From contig LT009756.1 in NCBI GenBank assembly GCA_900012615.1, positions 450,035 to 514,034 of the forward strand: a DNA stretch of 64,000 nt, in the 5' to 3' direction. Numbering within the stretch: position 1 is the stretch's first letter; each line of letters starts with the position of its first letter. Source of the DNA: Agrobacterium genomosp. 13 str. CFBP 6927. Its GTDB lineage: Bacteria; Pseudomonadota; Alphaproteobacteria; Rhizobiales; Rhizobiaceae. Below, one piece after another: positions 22,190-54,907 of the stretch. The notes under the pieces were generated by a model. It worked only from the letters and a program-made list of their open reading frames with translations, made no database searches and was not told the origin of the DNA. The position numbers and the translations under genes were made by a program.

Positions 22190-23521
22190 TTACTGGCGGA
22201 ATAGCGACAGGATATTTTCGGAGCTGGTATTGGCGATGGAGAGCGACTGGATTGCCAGCTGCTGCTGTGTCTGGAGAGCCTTGAGTTTGGTGGACTCTTC
22301 GTTCATGTCCGCATCGACGAGGCGGCCGATGCCCTTGTCGATGGAGTCGGTCAGCTTCGAGACGAAATCTTCCTGCAGGTCCAGGCGCATCTTGATGGAA
22401 CCGAGATCGGCACTCGCGCTGATGACCGATTCCAGCTGGGTATTGACGAACTGGATCATGTTGTCGAGACCGTCATTTTCAGTCAGTGCCTGACCGCTGG
22501 CATTCGTCAATCCGCCGAGATGTTTGGTAATGTCGAGGTCGATCAGCGAGTAGTTAAGCTTCTGGGCCATCTGCGAATCCGCGGCGGCGGTCTCGAGATA
22601 GATATTATTGTTGGACGAGCCGCCCGTTCCGATTGTGGTGACGGTGGTGCCGGCGGCGGGCGCAGTATTGTTGGCCTTGACATAAAGGGCTTCGCCAGCG
22701 GCGTTTTCACCGATCTTGAAGTAGGTGCCGTTATCTTTCGCGGCGGTTGCTGCGGCAACGGTAACAAGGCCGGTCGTTGCGTCGGCAGCTGAAACCGTTG
22801 TTGTCGAGCCCGACGGGAAGGCCAGAAGCTGAGCCTCTGTAAATACCTTTGCAGTGTGGAGCGTGGTTGTGGAAACGCCTGCGGTTGTCGTCGTAATCTC
22901 GAACTGCTTCAGGACGCCGGTGTCGGAATAATAAGCGGCGCTGTCGAGAATGCCGTTCTTCGTCGTACCCGTCGAGGTGTCGAAAAGCGCCGTCTTGTTG
23001 TCGACCTGAATATCGATGGTCTTGACCGCAACATTGCCTGCGCCATCGCGGATAAAGGAGCCGACGACCTGTTTGGTGATTGGTGTGAGATTGCCGGTGG
23101 CGTCGCTGATCTTGCCCTTCAGCCAGTTTTCGCCGGAGAAGGAGGCGGATTCGCCGATGCTCTTCAGCTGATCCTGAAGCTGGCTGATTTCTTCCTGGAT
23201 TTTCGCCTTGTCGACGCCGGCTTCGCGGGCCGCAACCAGCTTCTTGCTGATTTCCTTGACGACATCGACTGTGGTTTCCATGGCCGAATAAGCGGTGTCG
23301 ACCTTTGCTGCGCCGAGGCCGAGGGCGTCCTGAACGGCGGAAAGCGCACCATTGTCAGAGCGCATGGTGGTCGCAATCGACCAATAGGCGGCGTTGTCGG
23401 AGGCGGTCTTGACACGCAGGCCGGAGGAAACACGCGATTGCGTTTCTTCCATGCTGCTGCCGATGGCGCGAAGGGTCTGCAGGGCGGCCATTGCCGCGAC
23501 GTTCGTCAAAATGCTGGTCAT
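22190..23521 (-). CDS. flaC: Flagellin (third in cluster, FlaC-like)
   Basis: This flagellin subunit is exported through the flagellar channel to build the filament. The 443-residue protein has conserved D0/D1 ends: the N-terminus MTSILTNVAAMAALQTLRAI with SSGLRVKTASDNAAYWSIAT, and the C-terminus AIQSLSIANTSSENILSLFRQ. The central part (about 160-330) is Ala/Thr/Gly-rich and unlike that of the two neighbouring flagellins. It is longer than them by 47 residues. It has its own conserved leader (23522-23566) and terminator. The gene name follows the Agrobacterium order and is provisional. Confidence 0.9.
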   Translation of the reverse strand: MTSILTNVAAMAALQTLRAIGSSMEETQSRVSSGLRVKTASDNAAYWSIATTMRSDNGALSAVQDALGLGAAKVDTAYSAMETTVDVVKEISKKLVAAREAGVDKAKIQEEISQLQDQLKSIGESASFSGENWLKGKISDATGNLTPITKQVVGSFIRDGAGNVAVKTIDIQVDNKTALFDTSTGTTKNGILDSAAYYSDTGVLKQFEITTTTAGVSTTTLHTAKVFTEAQLLAFPSGSTTTVSAADATTGLVTVAAATAAKDNGTYFKIGENAAGEALYVKANNTAPAAGTTVTTIGTGGSSNNNIYLETAAADSQMAQKLNYSLIDLDITKHLGGLTNASGQALTENDGLDNMIQFVNTQLESVISASADLGSIKMRLDLQEDFVSKLTDSIDKGIGRLVDADMNEESTKLKALQTQQQLAIQSLSIANTSSENILSLFRQ

Positions 23522-23566
23522 AATTATTTGCCCCTTGATTGGCTGAAATGAAAAGGGACATTCCGG
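23522..23566 (-). promoter_or_regulatory. Flagellin leader with a hairpin able to hide the ribosome-binding site (flaC)
   Basis: On the - strand the leader contains CCGGAATGTCCCTT, 16 bases, then AAGGGGCA and nine bases to the ATG. TGTCCCTT (23553-23560) pairs with AAGGGGCA (23529-23536) over 8 bp including one G-T wobble, which would cover the Shine-Dalgarno sequence. The same layout occurs before flaB and flaA. Confidence 0.65.
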
Positions 23567-23702
23567 ATTGCCGCCGGGAACGATCGCGCGGCTTGATGCC
23601 TGTTAACCTCTTTTTCGTCTTGGTTAACCAATCGTTTCGATGACTAGGTTTTAGGCGGCAAATGGTTAACAAAGCCTAAATCAACGGAACGAGAAATTAA
23701 GG

Positions 23703-23727
23703 AACGATAATTTTTCTTAACGATAAT
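23703..23727. repeat. Direct repeat AACGATAAT upstream of flaC
   Basis: AACGATAAT occurs at 23703-23711 and again at 23719-23727, 16 bases apart, between the flaB terminator and the flaC leader. The position is right for an activator site on the flaC promoter, but no binding protein is known from the sequence. Confidence 0.4.
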
Positions 23728-23757
23728 GAAAAAAGCCGCGCTTGGAGCGCGGCTTTT
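23725..23757 (-). terminator. Rho-independent terminator after flaB
   Basis: The perfect 11-bp stem AAAAGCCGCGC (23731-23741) / GCGCGGCTTTT (23747-23757), with a five-base loop, ends in TTTTTT on the - strand. It starts 23 bases after the flaB stop. flaB is thus a single-gene transcript. Confidence 0.92.
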
Positions 23758-23780
23758 CAGTCTTGAAAGGCTTTTTCCGA

Positions 23781-24971
23781 TTAACGGAAGAGCGACAGGA
23801 TGTTCTGCGAGTCGCTGTTTGCGATCGAGAGCGACTGGATTGCCAGCTGCTGCTGCGTCTGCAGGGCCTTCAGCTTGGTGGACTCTTCGTTCATCTCGGC
23901 GTCGACGAGGCGGCCGATACCGCTGTCGATCGAGTCGGACAGCTTGGAAACGAAGTTTTCCTGCAGCTTGAGGCGGGAAGACACGGCACCCAGTCCTGCG
24001 GCTGCGCTTGTTGCGCCTTCGAGCTGGTTATCGACATGCGAGATCAGCTGGTCGAGAACGTCTTCGCTGGTTGCGGTCGCACCCAGGTTGAAAGCGGTCT
24101 TCATGGCGTCAAGCTTGGTGATGTCCAGGTTGAGAACCGATGTACCGGAAGCATATACGGCTGCGGTCGTCGTCAGTGCAGCGGGAACAGCGGCATTGAG
24201 AGTTGCACCAGTGGCGTCAGTTGTCTGGAGCCACTTGTTTTCGCCAACCTGCTTGTAGAAGTCCGTGCCATCGCTCCAGACGCCGTTTGCGCCTTCGGAG
24301 AAGGTCGCGCCGAGCGTCGTCGTTGCGGTGCGGAACGTACCATCGGTCCATTTTGCGACGTCGGCGCGCAGTGCGTCCGCGTCGAGAATGCCCTGCTTGT
24401 TGCCGCTGACGTCGACGAGAACGTTCGAGCCGTCGAGAGTGACGTCGATGGACTGAACCTTGACGTTGCCGTCAGAGCTACGGGTAAAGGAACCGACGAT
24501 CTGCTTGTTGACGGAAACGCCGGTTGCCAGGTCGCCGGCCGTTGCGGCGGTTTTACCGATAACGCCCTTGAGCCAGTTTTCACCGGAGAAGGAAGCCGAG
24601 TCGGTGATGGACTTCAGCTGATCCTGAAGCTGCGTGATTTCTTCCTGGATCTTGGCGCGGTCTACACCTGCTTCGCGCGAAGCGACCAGCTTGTTCTTGA
24701 TTTCCTTGATGACGTCGATCGAGGATTCAAGGCCGGCATAAGCCGTATCAACCTTGGCGGCGCCGAGGCCGAGAGCGTCCTGAACTGCGGAAAGAGCGCC
24801 GTTGTCCGAACGCATGGTGGTCGCGATCGACCAGTAAGCGGCGTTGTCGGAAGCCTGGCCAACGCGGAGGCCGGACGAAACACGGTCCTGAGTGGCTTCC
24901 ATGTTCTGGCCGATAGAGCGCAGCGTCTGGAGAGCAGACATAGCTGCGATGTTGGTAAGAATGCTAGTCAT
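23781..24971 (-). CDS. flaB: Flagellin (second in cluster, FlaB-like)
   Basis: This 396-residue flagellin has the same conserved ends as its neighbours (MTSILTNIAAMSALQTLRSI; C-terminal AIQSLSIANSDSQNILSLFR). From about residue 112 onward it is nearly identical to FlaA, including the central domain (VDVSGNKQGILDADALRADV, and NGVWSDGTDFYKQVGENKWL), while the first 110 residues differ more. That pattern suggests gene conversion or a recent partial duplication. The length of ~396 is longer than plain-filament agrobacterial flagellins and closer to those of complex filaments. The gene has its own leader and terminator. Confidence 0.93.
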   Translation of the reverse strand: MTSILTNIAAMSALQTLRSIGQNMEATQDRVSSGLRVGQASDNAAYWSIATTMRSDNGALSAVQDALGLGAAKVDTAYAGLESSIDVIKEIKNKLVASREAGVDRAKIQEEITQLQDQLKSITDSASFSGENWLKGVIGKTAATAGDLATGVSVNKQIVGSFTRSSDGNVKVQSIDVTLDGSNVLVDVSGNKQGILDADALRADVAKWTDGTFRTATTTLGATFSEGANGVWSDGTDFYKQVGENKWLQTTDATGATLNAAVPAALTTTAAVYASGTSVLNLDITKLDAMKTAFNLGATATSEDVLDQLISHVDNQLEGATSAAAGLGAVSSRLKLQENFVSKLSDSIDSGIGRLVDAEMNEESTKLKALQTQQQLAIQSLSIANSDSQNILSLFR

Positions 24972-25017
24972 GATAGATTTGCCCCTTGAATGGCTGATTA
25001 AAGAAGGGACATTCCGG
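24972..25017 (-). promoter_or_regulatory. Flagellin leader with a hairpin able to hide the ribosome-binding site (flaB)
   Basis: On the - strand, CCGGAATGTCCCTT is followed after 16 bases by AAGGGGCA and ten bases to the ATG. TGTCCCTT (25004-25011) and AAGGGGCA (24980-24987) can pair over 8 bp. Sequence and spacing are almost the same as in the flaC leader. Confidence 0.65.
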
Positions 25018-25373
25018 TCTCACCGGGAACGGCGCACAGCATCATGCCTGCTAACCGGCTGATTTTTAAAGGTTAGCTCACCGTTTCGATGGCCTTAGCT
25101 AATCCCGCTTTGGTTAATGAAGCCCTAAGCTGGCAGCAAAATCGCACATCTTTTGATTTAATTTTTCAACCATCGCGCGCACGCGCGCGTAAAGCAAAGA
25201 CCTTAAAAAACAGATAAGGCCGCATCCTTTTTAAAAAGATGCGGCCTTTGTCTGTATGGTTGGCTCAGCCTCCGACCATTTTTTCCTATCGTACCAGATG
25301 CCCGGTCAGCCCCCGCACACCTGGTCTCGATATTGGATCCCCCAGCCCCTTAAGGGCTATGAGATGCCGTCTC
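25018..25373 (-). other. flaA-flaB intergenic region
   Basis: This holds the flaB promoter and the flaA terminator. On the - strand it shares with the flaC upstream region the ordered blocks TTAACCA, CATCGAAACG, AGGCAT and CGTTCCCGG before the leader, so the two promoters are related. An alternating GCGCGCACGCGCGCG run lies at about 25174-25189. The 120 bases between the flaA stop and its terminator carry only a small palindrome (AGCCCCTTAAGGGCT near 25345). No gene is seen. Confidence 0.5.
25205..25248 (-). terminator. Rho-independent terminator after flaA
   Basis: The perfect 11-bp stem AAGGCCGCATC (25216-25226) / GATGCGGCCTT (25238-25248) is followed on the - strand by ATCTGTTTTTT. It lies about 125 bases beyond the flaA stop, giving that mRNA an unusually long 3' tail. 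Confidence 0.85.
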
Positions 25374-26564
25374 TTAACGGAAGAGCGACAGGATGTTCTG
25401 CGAGTCGCTGTTTGCGATCGAGAGCGACTGGATTGCCAGCTGCTGCTGCGTCTGCAGGGCCTTCAGCTTGGTGGATTCTTCGTTCATGTCGGCGTCGACG
25501 AGGCGGCCGATACCGCTTTCGAGCGAGTCAGACAGCTTGGAAACGAAGTTCTGCTGCATATCCAGTCGCGAAGATACGGCGCCCAGCTTTGCGGCTGCGC
25601 TTGTCGCTGCTTCGAGCTGGCCATCAACATGCGAGATCAGCTGGTCGAGAACGTCTTCGCTGGTTGCGGTCGCACCCAGGCCGAAATCGGTCTTCATGGT
25701 GTCGAGCTTGGTGAGATCCAGGTTGAGAACCGATGTGCCGGAAGCATAGACGGCTGCGGTCGTCGTCAGTGCAGCGGGAACAGCTGCATTGAGAGTTGCA
25801 CCAGTGGCGTCAGTTGTCTGGAGCCACTTGTTTTCGCCAACCTGCTTGTAGAAGTCCGTGCCATCGCTCCAGACGCCGTTTGAGCCTTCGGAGAAGGTCG
25901 CGCCGAGCGTCGTCGTTGCGGTGCGGAACGTACCATCGGTCCATTTTGCAACGTTTGCCTTCAGGGCGTCGGCATCGAGGATACCCTGCTTGTTGCCGCT
26001 GACATCGACGAGAACGTTCGAGCCGTCGAGAGTGACGTCGATGGACTGAACCTTGACGTTGCCCTCAGAGCTACGGGTAAAGGAACCGACGATCTGCTTG
26101 TCGATGGAAACGCCGGTTGCCAGGTCGCCGGCCGTTGCGGCGGCTTTGCCGATAACGCCCTTGAGCCAGTTTTCACCGGAGAAGGAAGCCGAGTCGGTGA
26201 TGGACTTCAGCTGATCCTGGAGCTGCGTGATTTCTTCCTGGATCTTGGACTTGTCAGCCGTCGATTCCTGGGCAGTGATGAGCTTGTTCTTGATTTCCTT
26301 GATGACGTTGATCGAGGATTCAAGACCGGAAGAGGCGGTGTCGACCTTGGCGGCGCCGAGGCCCATCGCGTCCTGTACGGAAGACAGAGCTGCATTGTCC
26401 GAACGCATGGTGGTCGCGATCGACCAGTAAGCAGCGTTGTCGGAGGCAGAGCTTACGCGCTGACCCGTCGAGATACGGCTCTGCGTGTCTTCCATGCTGG
26501 AAGAGATCGAACGCAGCGTCTGAAGAGCGGACATTGCGTTAATGTTGGTGAGAATGCTTGCCAT
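25374..26564 (-). CDS. flaA: Flagellin (first in cluster, FlaA-like)
   Basis: This 396-residue flagellin is the first transcribed of the three. By analogy with FlaA of Agrobacterium and Sinorhizobium it is probably the main, essential filament subunit; that is inference. It has typical ends (MASILTNINAMSALQTLRSI with STGQRVSSASDNAAYWSIAT; C-terminal AIQSLSIANSDSQNILSLFR). The central region is almost the same as in FlaB. It contains no cysteine. The leader at 26565-26611 resembles those of flaB and flaC, and a terminator follows. Confidence 0.93.
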   Translation of the reverse strand: MASILTNINAMSALQTLRSISSSMEDTQSRISTGQRVSSASDNAAYWSIATTMRSDNAALSSVQDAMGLGAAKVDTASSGLESSINVIKEIKNKLITAQESTADKSKIQEEITQLQDQLKSITDSASFSGENWLKGVIGKAAATAGDLATGVSIDKQIVGSFTRSSEGNVKVQSIDVTLDGSNVLVDVSGNKQGILDADALKANVAKWTDGTFRTATTTLGATFSEGSNGVWSDGTDFYKQVGENKWLQTTDATGATLNAAVPAALTTTAAVYASGTSVLNLDLTKLDTMKTDFGLGATATSEDVLDQLISHVDGQLEAATSAAAKLGAVSSRLDMQQNFVSKLSDSLESGIGRLVDADMNEESTKLKALQTQQQLAIQSLSIANSDSQNILSLFR

Positions 26565-26611
26565 AGTAAATGTGTCCCTTGTTTACGAGATACTGGAGTG
26601 GGGACATTCCG
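26565..26611 (-). promoter_or_regulatory. Flagellin leader with a hairpin able to hide the ribosome-binding site (flaA)
   Basis: On the - strand, CCGGAATGTCCC is followed after 22 bases by AAGGGACA and the ATG. TGTCCC (26601-26606) pairs with GGGACA (26573-26578) over 6 bp without wobble. Compared with flaB/flaC the ribosome-binding side has changed from GGGGCA to GGGACA yet still pairs, which supports a selected structure. Confidence 0.6.
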
Positions 26612-26935
26612 GACTTTGTATTACCGGTCGCAACGTTTCGGCTTCATGCCACTCGGTTCAGAAATGCTTAGTTTCGGAAACCAAACCCGTTGTGTGTGTG
26701 GGAAATCTCGCAGCGAAAAATTGCCCAATGATTAATTTGAACGTTAAGAAATACTGGAAAATACTTATAGTTAGTTTTGGATTTATATTATTGGTGAGTT
26801 TTCAATTTAAAAATATAGTTACCAAGTCATCAGTAAAGCTGGTAACTAAAGCGTTAAAACGCAAAAACCCCGCAGCCTTGGGCATGCGGGGTTAAAGAAC
26901 AGGGTTAAGCGGTGTCAGTTCGGCACAGATTGCCG
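26612..26935 (-). other. flaA promoter region and fliP 3' region
   Basis: No convincing gene. Bases 26730-26850 are strongly AT-rich, in contrast to the flanks, and should include the flaA promoter. On the - strand the block GCATGAAGC...CCGG just before the leader resembles the flaB and flaC regions. The fliP terminator occupies the distal end. Confidence 0.45.
26862..26893 (-). terminator. Rho-independent terminator after fliP
   Basis: The perfect 9-bp stem AACCCCGCA (26866-26874) / TGCGGGGTT (26885-26893) is followed on the - strand by TTTTGCGTTTT. It ends the flgB-to-fliP operon, 43 bases after the fliP stop. Confidence 0.9.
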
Positions 26936-42144: not shown

Positions 42145-42450
42145 ACCAGACCACCGGACATTTTGATCGATTATCCGTCGTGCCTGCAAAAATCACGGGC
42201 GCGACGGCCTCATTGGGGCATTTTTTCGCCCGAGCTTGCCTGAAGCCTGTCGGTTTATGCAAAACCGTTCTGTAAAGCCAAGGAACGCCTTGCAAATCAG
42301 CGTTGTTGTTTGTTACCTATCGCATTAACGATTTGTTAACGAACGGCAGGTCGCGGTGGCCGGTTTCAGCCATTGCCGATGCGCATGATGCTCCTGCTCG
42401 TTTTCGGCGAAGCGCCGGATTTTTCTGACATTTTGAATTGGGTGGATCCC
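42145..42450 (+). other. Region upstream of the fourth flagellin gene
   Basis: A hairpin (42175-42207) follows the flhB operon. Further on, TTAACGA occurs twice, at 42325-42331 and 42336-42342, 11 bases apart, in the likely promoter zone. The conserved leader seen before flaA, flaB and flaC is absent; the ATG is preceded simply by GGGTGGATCCC. No gene is seen. Confidence 0.45.
42175..42207 (+). terminator. Candidate terminator hairpin after the flhB operon
   Basis: A 10-bp stem with one wobble, CCGTCGTGCC (42175-42184) / GGCGCGACGG (42198-42207), lies 30 bases after the stop. There is no T run. Confidence 0.4.
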
Positions 42451-43743
42451 ATGACCAGCATTTTGACCAATGCGGCGGCAATGGCCGCGCTGCAGACCCT
42501 GCGCATGATCGACAAGAATCTGGAAACGACACAGGCGCGGGTGTCCTCCGGTTATCGTGTCGAGACTGCGGCGGACAATGCGGCCTACTGGTCCATCTCG
42601 ACGACAATGCGCTCCGACAATAATGCGCTTTCCGCGGTGCAGGATGCCTTGGGTCTGGGCGCCGCCAAGGTCGACACTGCCTATGACGCGCTTGAAAGCA
42701 CGATCGAGGTTGTCAAGCAGATCAAGGCCAAGCTTGTTGCCGCCTACGGCGTTGGCGCCGACCGCGGCAAGATTCAGGATGAAATCAAGCAGCTTCAGGA
42801 GCAGCTGAAAAGCATTTCCGAATCCGCTTCCTTCTCCGGTGAAAACTGGCTGCAGGCCAGCATCAGCAACGGTGGCACGCCGCCGGCCGAAGAACCCATC
42901 ACGAAGAAGGTCGTTGCATCCTTCACGCGAACGGGCTCGGGAAATGTCGGCGTCACCACCGTTGACTACAAGCTCGATGGCAGCACCGTCCTTTTCGACC
43001 TGAGCGGTGGAAAGCTCGGTATTCTCGACAAGAGCGCCGTTTTTGTCGGCAAGACGGAATATGAAGTCACCCAGACGTCGACGACCGCCGGCACGGTAAC
43101 GAAGACGGGTTACGTCCTGCCGAAACTCACCGACGCGCAAATTGGCGTTCTGAATGCCGCGACGGCGGATACGAACACGGATCCGAATGTCTATAGTGGC
43201 GGGGCCGACAATTATCTCCGTCTTGCGGAAAACGTATGGGTCAAGGTGACGGCAACAGACCCGTCCGGCGGCGGAACGACCGTTTCCTCTGCCTATCGCG
43301 ACACCACTGGCAATGACTGGTTTTACGATACGAGCGGCGGCCAGACCTCCATCGCTCGTTCCCTCGGTTTTTCCGTCTCCACACTCGATCTCGGCAATCT
43401 CGATGTCGTCGCTGCGGCCATGGGCGGTTTTGCCGGCGGCGGCACCACCTATACCGATGCGGATGCCATCGATGTGATGATGTCCTTCGTGGACAAGCAG
43501 CTCGAGGCGATGACCAGCACGGCTTCCAGTCTCGGTTCGCTGCAGAGCCGCATCGACATGCAGGAAAATTTCGTGTCGAGCCTGATGGATGTGATCGACA
43601 AGGGCATTGGCCGTCTCGTCGATGCTGACATGAACGAGGAATCGACCAGGCTGAAAGCGCTGCAGACGCAGCAGCAGCTCGGCATCCAGGCGCTCTCCAT
43701 CGCCAATGCCAATGCGGAAAATATCCTCCAGCTCTTCAAGTAA
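42451..43743 (+). CDS. flaD: Flagellin (fourth copy, FlaD-like)
   Basis: This 430-residue flagellin lies away from the other three, on the opposite strand, as flaD does in Agrobacterium tumefaciens. It has the usual ends (MTSILTNAAAMAALQTLRMI; C-terminal GIQALSIANANAENILQLFK) and its own Gly/Thr-rich centre with Trp residues (ENVWVKV, GNDWFYD). The last residues differ from the SLFR ending of FlaA/B. ATG 42451 is chosen over 42373 because the conserved N-terminus begins there. It lacks the leader hairpin of flaA, flaB and flaC. Confidence 0.92.
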   Translation: MTSILTNAAAMAALQTLRMIDKNLETTQARVSSGYRVETAADNAAYWSISTTMRSDNNALSAVQDALGLGAAKVDTAYDALESTIEVVKQIKAKLVAAYGVGADRGKIQDEIKQLQEQLKSISESASFSGENWLQASISNGGTPPAEEPITKKVVASFTRTGSGNVGVTTVDYKLDGSTVLFDLSGGKLGILDKSAVFVGKTEYEVTQTSTTAGTVTKTGYVLPKLTDAQIGVLNAATADTNTDPNVYSGGADNYLRLAENVWVKVTATDPSGGGTTVSSAYRDTTGNDWFYDTSGGQTSIARSLGFSVSTLDLGNLDVVAAAMGGFAGGGTTYTDADAIDVMMSFVDKQLEAMTSTASSLGSLQSRIDMQENFVSSLMDVIDKGIGRLVDADMNEESTRLKALQTQQQLGIQALSIANANAENILQLFK

Positions 43744-54116: not shown

Positions 54117-54461
54117 ATGTACCAGTTTTCCTACGCCGAAATCATGGAGGATGGTGTCGCCAACGCGAAAGATCGCGAGCGGCAGGCGTTGACAAAATCG
54201 ATCGAACTTCTGGTGGAGGCAAAGGATTCCTCTTCCCAGCGCCATACGATCGAAGCGCTTTTTTACACTCGAAGGGTCTGGATCCGCTTCATTGAGGATT
54301 TGAAGCAACCCGACAACCAGCTTGCCACGGAACTCAGGGCCAACCTGATTTCGATTGCGATCTGGATATTGAAAGAGTGCGAACTGATCCGGAAACGTCA
54401 GTCGACGAATTTCCAGGGCATTATTGACGTGACAACCATCATCAGGGATGGACTGAAATGA
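54117..54461 (+). CDS. flaF: Flagellar biosynthesis regulator FlaF
   Basis: FlaF is needed for flagellin production and acts with FlbT after transcription; in Caulobacter it works against FlbT and may chaperone flagellin. The 114-residue protein is all-helical ([20 protein letters not shown] ... [20 protein letters not shown], with [14 protein letters not shown] at the end), as expected. It overlaps flbT by four bases. Flagellin leaders in this window are its possible targets. Confidence 0.93.
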
Positions 54462-54907
54462 AAAGTACACTTCGAATTTCGCTGAAATCGGGCGAAAAGA
54501 TTTTCATCAACGGCGCGGTCTTGCGTGTGGATCGCAAGGTGGCGCTCGAATTCCTGAACGATGTCACGTTCCTGCTTGAGAACCACGTGTTGCAGCCGGA
54601 GCAGGCGACGACGCCGCTCAGGCAGCTTTATTTCATCGCGCAGATGATCCTCATCAACCCGGAAGGGCGCGAACAGTCGACTAACATGTTCCGCAAGTCC
54701 GTGAGCATGCTGTTGAACTGCTTTCAGCATGATGAGGTTCTGGCCGAACTCAAGCGGATCGACGGGCTGGTTGCCTCCGGCAAGGCTTTCGAAGCGCTGA
54801 AGGCCATTCGCGGCCTCTATCCGCTCGAGGAGAAAATCCTCAACAATCAGGAAATGACCCCGGCAACGATCGAACACATTCGCAAGGAGATAGCACCATG
54901 GCGGTAG
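54458..54907 (+). CDS. flbT: Flagellin mRNA regulator FlbT
   Basis: FlbT controls flagellin translation; in Caulobacter it acts on the 5' leader of fljK mRNA and lowers its stability. The 149-residue protein starts with a small beta-rich part ([20 protein letters not shown]) and continues with helices ([40 protein letters not shown]). It overlaps flaF by four bases and flgD by ten. It is the most likely partner of the hairpin leaders upstream of flaA, flaB and flaC. Confidence 0.94.

Follow-up and report, generated by a model that had tools for sequence, protein, structure and literature searches.

Three neighbouring flagellin genes, flaC, flaB and flaA, raise the question of whether their messenger RNAs begin with a structure that covers its own ribosome-binding site and, if so, what might open it. 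They lie on the minus strand of a 64,000-nucleotide (nt) stretch of Agrobacterium genomosp. 13 str. CFBP 6927 (contig LT009756.1, positions 450,035 to 514,034; hereafter the window). An initial annotation of this DNA had suggested that their leaders can fold over the Shine–Dalgarno (SD) sequence and serve as a translational switch coupled to hook completion, noting that FlbT acts on a flagellin leader in Caulobacter. Comparison with relatives gives good support to a conserved flagellin leader that covers the SD, and we consider it likely that this RNA controls flagellin translation.

A predicted three-hairpin leader shared by flaC, flaB and flaA

The genes and the predicted leader hairpins (hp0, hp1 and hp2) are as follows; scores are those of a covariance model, R1, of which all three leaders are training rows.

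22190..23521, minus strand: flaC, flagellin (Pfam Flagellin_N and Flagellin_C)
23781..24971, minus strand: flaB, flagellin (Pfam Flagellin_N and Flagellin_C)
25374..26564, minus strand: flaA, flagellin (Pfam Flagellin_N and Flagellin_C)
23519..23601, minus strand: flaC leader element (R1 66.7 bits, sequence, fold)
23590-23600 (hp0), 23563-23577 (hp1), 23529-23560 (hp2), minus strand: predicted flaC leader hairpins, with the SD arm AAGGGGCA at 23529-23536 and the start codon at 23521
24969..25049, minus strand: flaB leader element (R1 66.9 bits, sequence, fold)
25038-25048 (hp0), 25014-25026 (hp1), 24980-25011 (hp2), minus strand: predicted flaB leader hairpins, with the SD arm AAGGGGCA at 24980-24987 and the start codon at 24971
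26562..26651, minus strand: flaA leader element (R1 60.1 bits, sequence, fold)
26640-26650 (hp0), 26609-26627 (hp1), 26573-26606 (hp2), minus strand: predicted flaA leader hairpins, with the SD arm GGGACA at 26573-26578 and the start codon at 26564

All three leaders carry the 12-mer CCGGAATGTCCC on the minus strand, at 23555-23566 (flaC), 25006-25017 (flaB) and 26601-26612 (flaA). The 5.16-Mb genome holds five exact copies, the remaining two of which fall within reading frames (L004, judged by eye, and L005), and none of the reversed control sequence. With two mismatches allowed, the window contained 8 matches against 7.88 expected, so that only exact copies stand out.

The complement to the SD sequence was found as the initial annotation had described it. 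In flaB and flaC, TGTCCCTT can pair with AAGGGGCA over eight contiguous base pairs, one of them U-G; in flaA, where the SD arm region reads AAGGGACA, TGTCCC can pair with GGGACA over six. The change from GGGGCA to GGGACA does keep the pairing, by turning U-G into U-A, but it is one-sided and therefore weak evidence by itself. This SD hairpin, hp2 (UGUCCC..GGGRCA), is part of a larger element that also comprises hp0 (GGC-AUGAN-GCC) and hp1 (CCGG..CCGG). As a side observation, the FlaA and FlaB proteins (25374-26564 and 23781-24971, minus strand) are 88% identical while their leaders fall into different classes (GGGACA vs GGGGCA), a pattern such as homogenisation confined to the coding sequences would leave.

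Conservation of pairing across relatives

Flagellin starts were gathered by protein similarity from 77 named loci and further loci of relatives. The 296 starts yielded 275 distinct leaders once odd start codons, short upstream sequences, sequences with N and duplicates had been dropped. The hp0 hairpin, a 3-bp stem over AUGAN, could be placed through CAT[GC]ANG in 262 of the 275; within these 262, the pair one step outside hp0 was standard in 259 and the CCGG..CCGG of hp1 was present in 242. A GGGNC SD accompanied a UG[UC][UC]C arm in 208 of 215 leaders, compared with 15 of the 60 leaders lacking the arm, a contrast that is partly a paralogue-class effect and rests on an arm search pattern that misses a few arms.

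For pairing statistics, 67 leaders from the two arm-bearing classes were passed through an 80% identity filter and aligned with MAFFT without regard to structure; flaD-like leaders consequently lie outside this set. Overall, 88.9% of cells were paired, with a covariation score of 0.170 as compared to 0.111 ± 0.006 in shuffles (0 of 500 reached it) and 0.032–0.090 in slid controls. Because the sequences are related, we also applied a tree-aware null, in which columns evolved independently on a flagellin-protein tree. The paired fraction was reached by 0 of 2,000 nulls for hp0 and hp1, 13 of 2,000 for hp2 and 34 of 2,000 for the hp2 core, and the hp0 covariation score also beat this null (21 of 2,000). 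In an extended set of 113 leaders, none of 1,000 nulls reached the paired fraction of hp0, hp1 or the hp2 core, and 14 of 1,000 reached that of all eight hp2 pairs. For hp0, pairing stood at 0.941 versus 0.725 in the tree-aware null (0 of 1,000).

Several relatives carry changes on both sides of a stem. For hp2 these are UGUUCC/GGAACA (L174, L210), UGUUUC/GGAGCA (L239) and UGUCCU/AGGACA (L244); for hp1, GCUGC/GCAGC (L227), CCAGC/GCUGG (L240) and UCGG/CCGA (L239, L264). Such two-sided variants are the best single pieces of evidence for pairing. For hp2, the covariation check proposed in the initial annotation gives a mixed picture: compensatory variants do exist in relatives, but the tree-aware covariation score was not significant.

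Cover of the Shine–Dalgarno sequence

Taking the first ATG of each reading frame as the start codon, we counted stems covering the SD in the 138 flagellin leaders that passed the reading-frame filter and in 573 other genes of the same loci. Stems of at least six pairs were found in 118 flagellin leaders as compared to 88 other genes, and stems of at least eight pairs in 51 as compared to 12. An SD-complementary arm, the feature of leaders that sequester the ribosome-binding site, is hence commoner in flagellin leaders than in other genes, and SD cover above chance is a property of flagellin leaders as a class. Within minimum-energy folds, hp2 appeared in all four flaB and flaC stretches that were folded and in one of two flaA stretches.

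The flaD leader

A fourth flagellin gene in the window, flaD, had been suggested as one that may escape this control for want of the shared leader.

42381..42453, plus strand: flaD leader, with an hp0-like GCATGATGC at 42383-42391, an hp1-like CGGCG..CGCCG at 42405-42417 and no hp2
42440-42450, plus strand: flaD SD region GGGTGGATCCC, with the start codon at 42451

It indeed lacks CCGGAATGTCCC and hp2 and scores only 14.1 bits with R1 (E 0.035 in the window), but hairpins resembling hp0 and hp1 are kept and its SD lies within GGGUGGAUCCC, a small GGG-UGGAU-CCC repeat, so escape from control does not follow. Judged from its bases, flaD carries the shared hp0–hp1 module minus the flagellin-specific cover. 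Separately, the CtrA consensus as quoted in PMC3616915, TAA-N7-TTAAC, is matched upstream of flaD by TTAACGATTTGTTAAC on the plus strand at 42325-42340 (here and below, statements from cited papers refer to the excerpts available); TTAAC half-sites are also found upstream of flaB and flaC.

Range of the element

R1 matched 69 of 297 genomes, representing 33 of 123 genera of the order. These included 106 matches outside this genome, of which 104 were fetched and two, at contig ends, were left out. A flagellin-like protein followed in 96 of the 104, and in 92 of these the match ended at the start codon; the remaining eight comprised four receptor leaders (L260, L261, L263, L265), one match before a HAMP-domain protein (L241) and three without an assigned gene (L251, L255, L262). 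Across a class sample of 385 genomes only four matched, namely this genome, G059 (also from this order) and two genomes outside the order, both borderline and neither assigned to a flagellin.

Within its own genome, R1 recovered the three window leaders and a fourth place absent from its training rows (contig 1, 444270-444349, 29.0 bits, E 2.9e-4; L126 1501-1580, about 5.7 kb left of the window). Here hp0 and hp1 are present without hp2, and a globin-type chemoreceptor gene (MCPsignal and Protoglobin domains) begins about 200 nt downstream; the same hp0–hp1 arrangement precedes a similar protein in the four same-family genomes with receptor leaders. A narrower model restricted to hp0 and hp1 (R2, built from the 21 of 47 rows with one spacing) clearly recovered these four places as well, with no further hit in this genome below E 0.4. 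By eye, all five chemoreceptor leaders show a second hairpin of varying sequence shortly before the SD (for example GGCCGG..CCGGCC and CCAAUCC..GGAUUGG). Taken together, comparison argues for a conserved element that pairs above the tree-aware null and sits directly before flagellins.

Association with FlbT

The flaF and flbT genes had been placed in the same window, which Pfam matches confirm.

54117..54461, plus strand: flaF, candidate FlbT partner (Pfam FlaF, E 2.1e-33)
54458..54907, plus strand: flbT, candidate leader-reading regulator (Pfam FlbT, E 2.3e-42)

Published reports on FlbT point both ways. It is described as a repressor in Caulobacter (PMC7591256, PMC3930126), where repression involves the flagellin FljJ (PMC7591256) and FlbT binding promotes decay of the target mRNA (PMC4347634). 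For Brucella it is described as an activator (PMC4347634, PMC9812332), in Bradyrhizobium it induces the lateral flagellins at the level of translation (PMC8429497), and flbT and flaF were among the genes hit in an Agrobacterium fabrum motility screen (PMC9812332). A sequence search for a structurally solved relative of FlbT gave none (best E 0.36).

FlbT was found in 210 of the 297 order genomes and in 68 of the 69 with an R1 match, the one without being G137, which is 86% complete. Twenty genomes with an R1 match have two FlbT genes; in 18 of them an element lay 12–28 kb from one FlbT copy, the second copy being on another contig (11 genomes) or at least 428 kb distant (7 genomes); in the two exceptions, the elements were on contigs without FlbT. 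The FlbT model matched 372 nt of the near copy in 17 of the 18 genomes and 363–366 nt of the far copy; across all the FlbT copies compared, the one away from the element gave 360–366 nt. This suggests two FlbT types differing by about two residues. In G059, four flagellins within 9 kb of the far copy had no R1 match at E 0.001. This pattern fits one regulator per flagellar system, but simple co-inheritance of a gene cluster as well.

Weighing the mechanism

In the mechanism we favour, the flaC, flaB and flaA mRNAs would carry at their 5' end a conserved cis-regulatory RNA, roughly 80 nt long, in which hp0 and hp1 would form a 5' module common to other late motility mRNAs. Pairing of UGUCCC(UU) with the SD (AA)GGGRCA in hp2 would by default hold flagellin translation at a low level. 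The most likely reader of the hp0–hp1 module would be FlbT, whose gene lies in this flagellar cluster; with FlaF as partner, it would help to uncover the SD once flagellin is needed, hook completion being a possible signal. That FlbT acts through the leader is our best guess, put forward tentatively. We infer activation because a self-closing leader needs an opener, a role that an activator fits better than a repressor, and because of the reports from Brucella, Bradyrhizobium and A. fabrum (PMC4347634, PMC8429497, PMC9812332). Of the translational-control reading as first proposed, the part that stood is a shared, structurally conserved, SD-covering leader, with pairing kept across the order and a few true compensatory changes.

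Several results weigh against this picture. In the 67-leader set, the covariation scores of hp1 and hp2 were reached by 151 and 1,147 of 2,000 tree-aware nulls; in the 113-leader set, those of hp0, hp1 and the hp2 core were reached by 59, 219 and 295 of 1,000, none of them clear, and 52 rows of that set came from the order sample, picked by a model in which pairing raises the score. Among the 275 MAFFT-aligned leaders, a G-test against a tree-based null found no significant column pair (best E 1.4). Fold z-scores of three longer stretches against dinucleotide shuffles were weak (flaC -0.84, flaB -0.77, flaA +0.46), so folding energy alone fails to show hp2. Predicted SD pairing was high in flaD-class leaders too (0.81 vs 0.79 and 0.91). 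Five leaders (L248, L249, L253, L254, L257) lack the UGUCCC arm despite the presence of FlbT, and 142 of the 210 FlbT genomes have no R1 match, so FlbT has no need of the element; its co-occurrence and proximity may be plain co-inheritance of the flagellar gene cluster. Finally, no mapped flagellin transcription start was found in the accessible literature. Two further analyses were set aside: in a best-hairpin search of the hp1 region just 14 of 262 leaders exceeded 95% of their shuffles, and energy z-scores and SD pairing probability did not separate the leader classes. The five leaders without the arm, which precede flagellins in the same family, keep hp0 and hp1 and have UGUCAAA in its place; in L248, L249 and L257 the SD lies within AAGGUACGAGUACC, able to form a small hairpin of its own that is perhaps a replacement SD cover.

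FlbT could instead be a repressor: it would bind the closed leader and, aided by a flagellin co-repressor, keep it shut until hook completion, whereupon the co-repressor would be exported with FlaF. Such an arrangement would agree with the Caulobacter reports (PMC7591256, PMC3930126, PMC9812332) and with the adjacency of flaF and flbT in the window, but hp2 by itself already closes the SD, and FlbT activates in Brucella (PMC4347634), induces the lateral flagellins of Bradyrhizobium (PMC8429497) and is among the genes whose loss impairs A. fabrum motility (PMC9812332); we regard it as unlikely. We give similarly little credence to the idea that hp0 and hp1 are a late-class promoter or operator element in DNA, with only hp2, or nothing, acting in RNA. 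The gap between hp0 and hp1 is nearly fixed, the pair occurs upstream of genes whose leaders differ and, in the chemoreceptor gene, is about 200 nt away from the start, the hp0 stem is just 3 bp, and CtrA binds S. meliloti flagellin promoters (PMC4433202), all of which would suit a DNA site. Conversely, the hp1 arms change together in L227, L240, L239 and L264, losing direct repeats while complementarity is kept; hp0 pairing exceeds the tree-aware null by the margin given above; and, unlike a symmetric operator, the hp0 loop combines a free fifth base with a fixed mirror position. Readings of hp0–hp1 as a sigma54, sigma28 or extracytoplasmic function (ECF) sigma factor promoter were weighed by eye only and set aside.

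Hairpins close to a 5' end can stabilise mRNA, and the leader might chiefly guard the message from decay or be a small-RNA target, SD pairing being secondary. In most flagellins it is the SD that the arm complements, something rare in other genes, and in L174, L239 and L244 the arm and the SD have changed in concert, which leaves this account distinctly improbable even when the FlbT-promoted decay of a Caulobacter target (PMC4347634) is counted in its favour. Lowest of all we would place mere coincidence, that is, two separately conserved motifs that happen to be complementary: the hp2 columns barely vary, their tree-aware covariation scores are not significant and the fold z-scores are weak, but the paired fraction lies above the tree-aware null (hp2 13 of 2,000; hp2 core 0 of 1,000) and compensatory variants exist.

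Relation to known leader RNAs

An Rfam search of the window at gathering score returned one tRNA and no match for the leaders, and relaxing the thresholds over 23400-26900 brought up no credible family. The flg-Rhizobiales RNA (RF01736) was rejected as the identity of the element, as it had no window match at gathering score and was not among the lax matches of 23400-26900; in the whole genome it had no match at E 0.001, in a search of stricter candidates only whose controls likewise matched nowhere there. RF01736 resembles the flagellin leaders in being a structured RNA of this order that precedes a flagellar gene and is depicted with three stem-loops (PMC3765529), but it spans 141 positions, differs in sequence and structure, and in two examples precedes a rod gene of the FlgE/F/G family rather than a flagellin. 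It matched 46 of the 297 order genomes, 9 of them over the model cut-off. In G059, G260 and G277 it lies about 10–23 kb from the FlbT copy other than the one near R1, and in G167 RF01736 and R1 are on different contigs; these four genomes may hold two flagellar systems in one cell, each with its own leader RNA.

Leaders that sequester the ribosome-binding site include ribosomal-protein operators, thermometers and many small-RNA targets. The flagellin leaders resemble them in that an upstream arm would pair with the SD and limit initiation; they differ in that the SD hairpin follows a two-hairpin module also found alone, in the flaD and chemoreceptor leaders. The FlbT-bound flagellin 5' untranslated region of Caulobacter is similar in that a flagellin leader is controlled at translation in a species that has FlbT and FlaF, but its reported sign is repression. 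Outside the order, R1 matched just two of the 385 class-sample genomes, both borderline. No prior description of this leader was found in the literature (PMC2873474, searched for flagellar words, gave no hit), a search outside which most subscription papers fell and which is thus no proof of novelty. A bolder proposition, which we hold to be possible yet doubtful, is that the element belongs to an RNA family, so far undescribed, of the rhizobial order. Its two 5' hairpins would form a module that marks the mRNAs of late motility genes, both flagellins and the chemotaxis gene cluster, and that one FlbT type reads; flagellins would add hp2 as the part that turns binding into SD opening.

Reports disagree on FlbT, which appears as a repressor in one species and as an activator in others. 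The element described here is a defined RNA with limits, a phylogenetic range and natural compensatory variants, and genomes with two FlbT genes provide a natural control. Together, these make FlbT binding and its sign directly testable.

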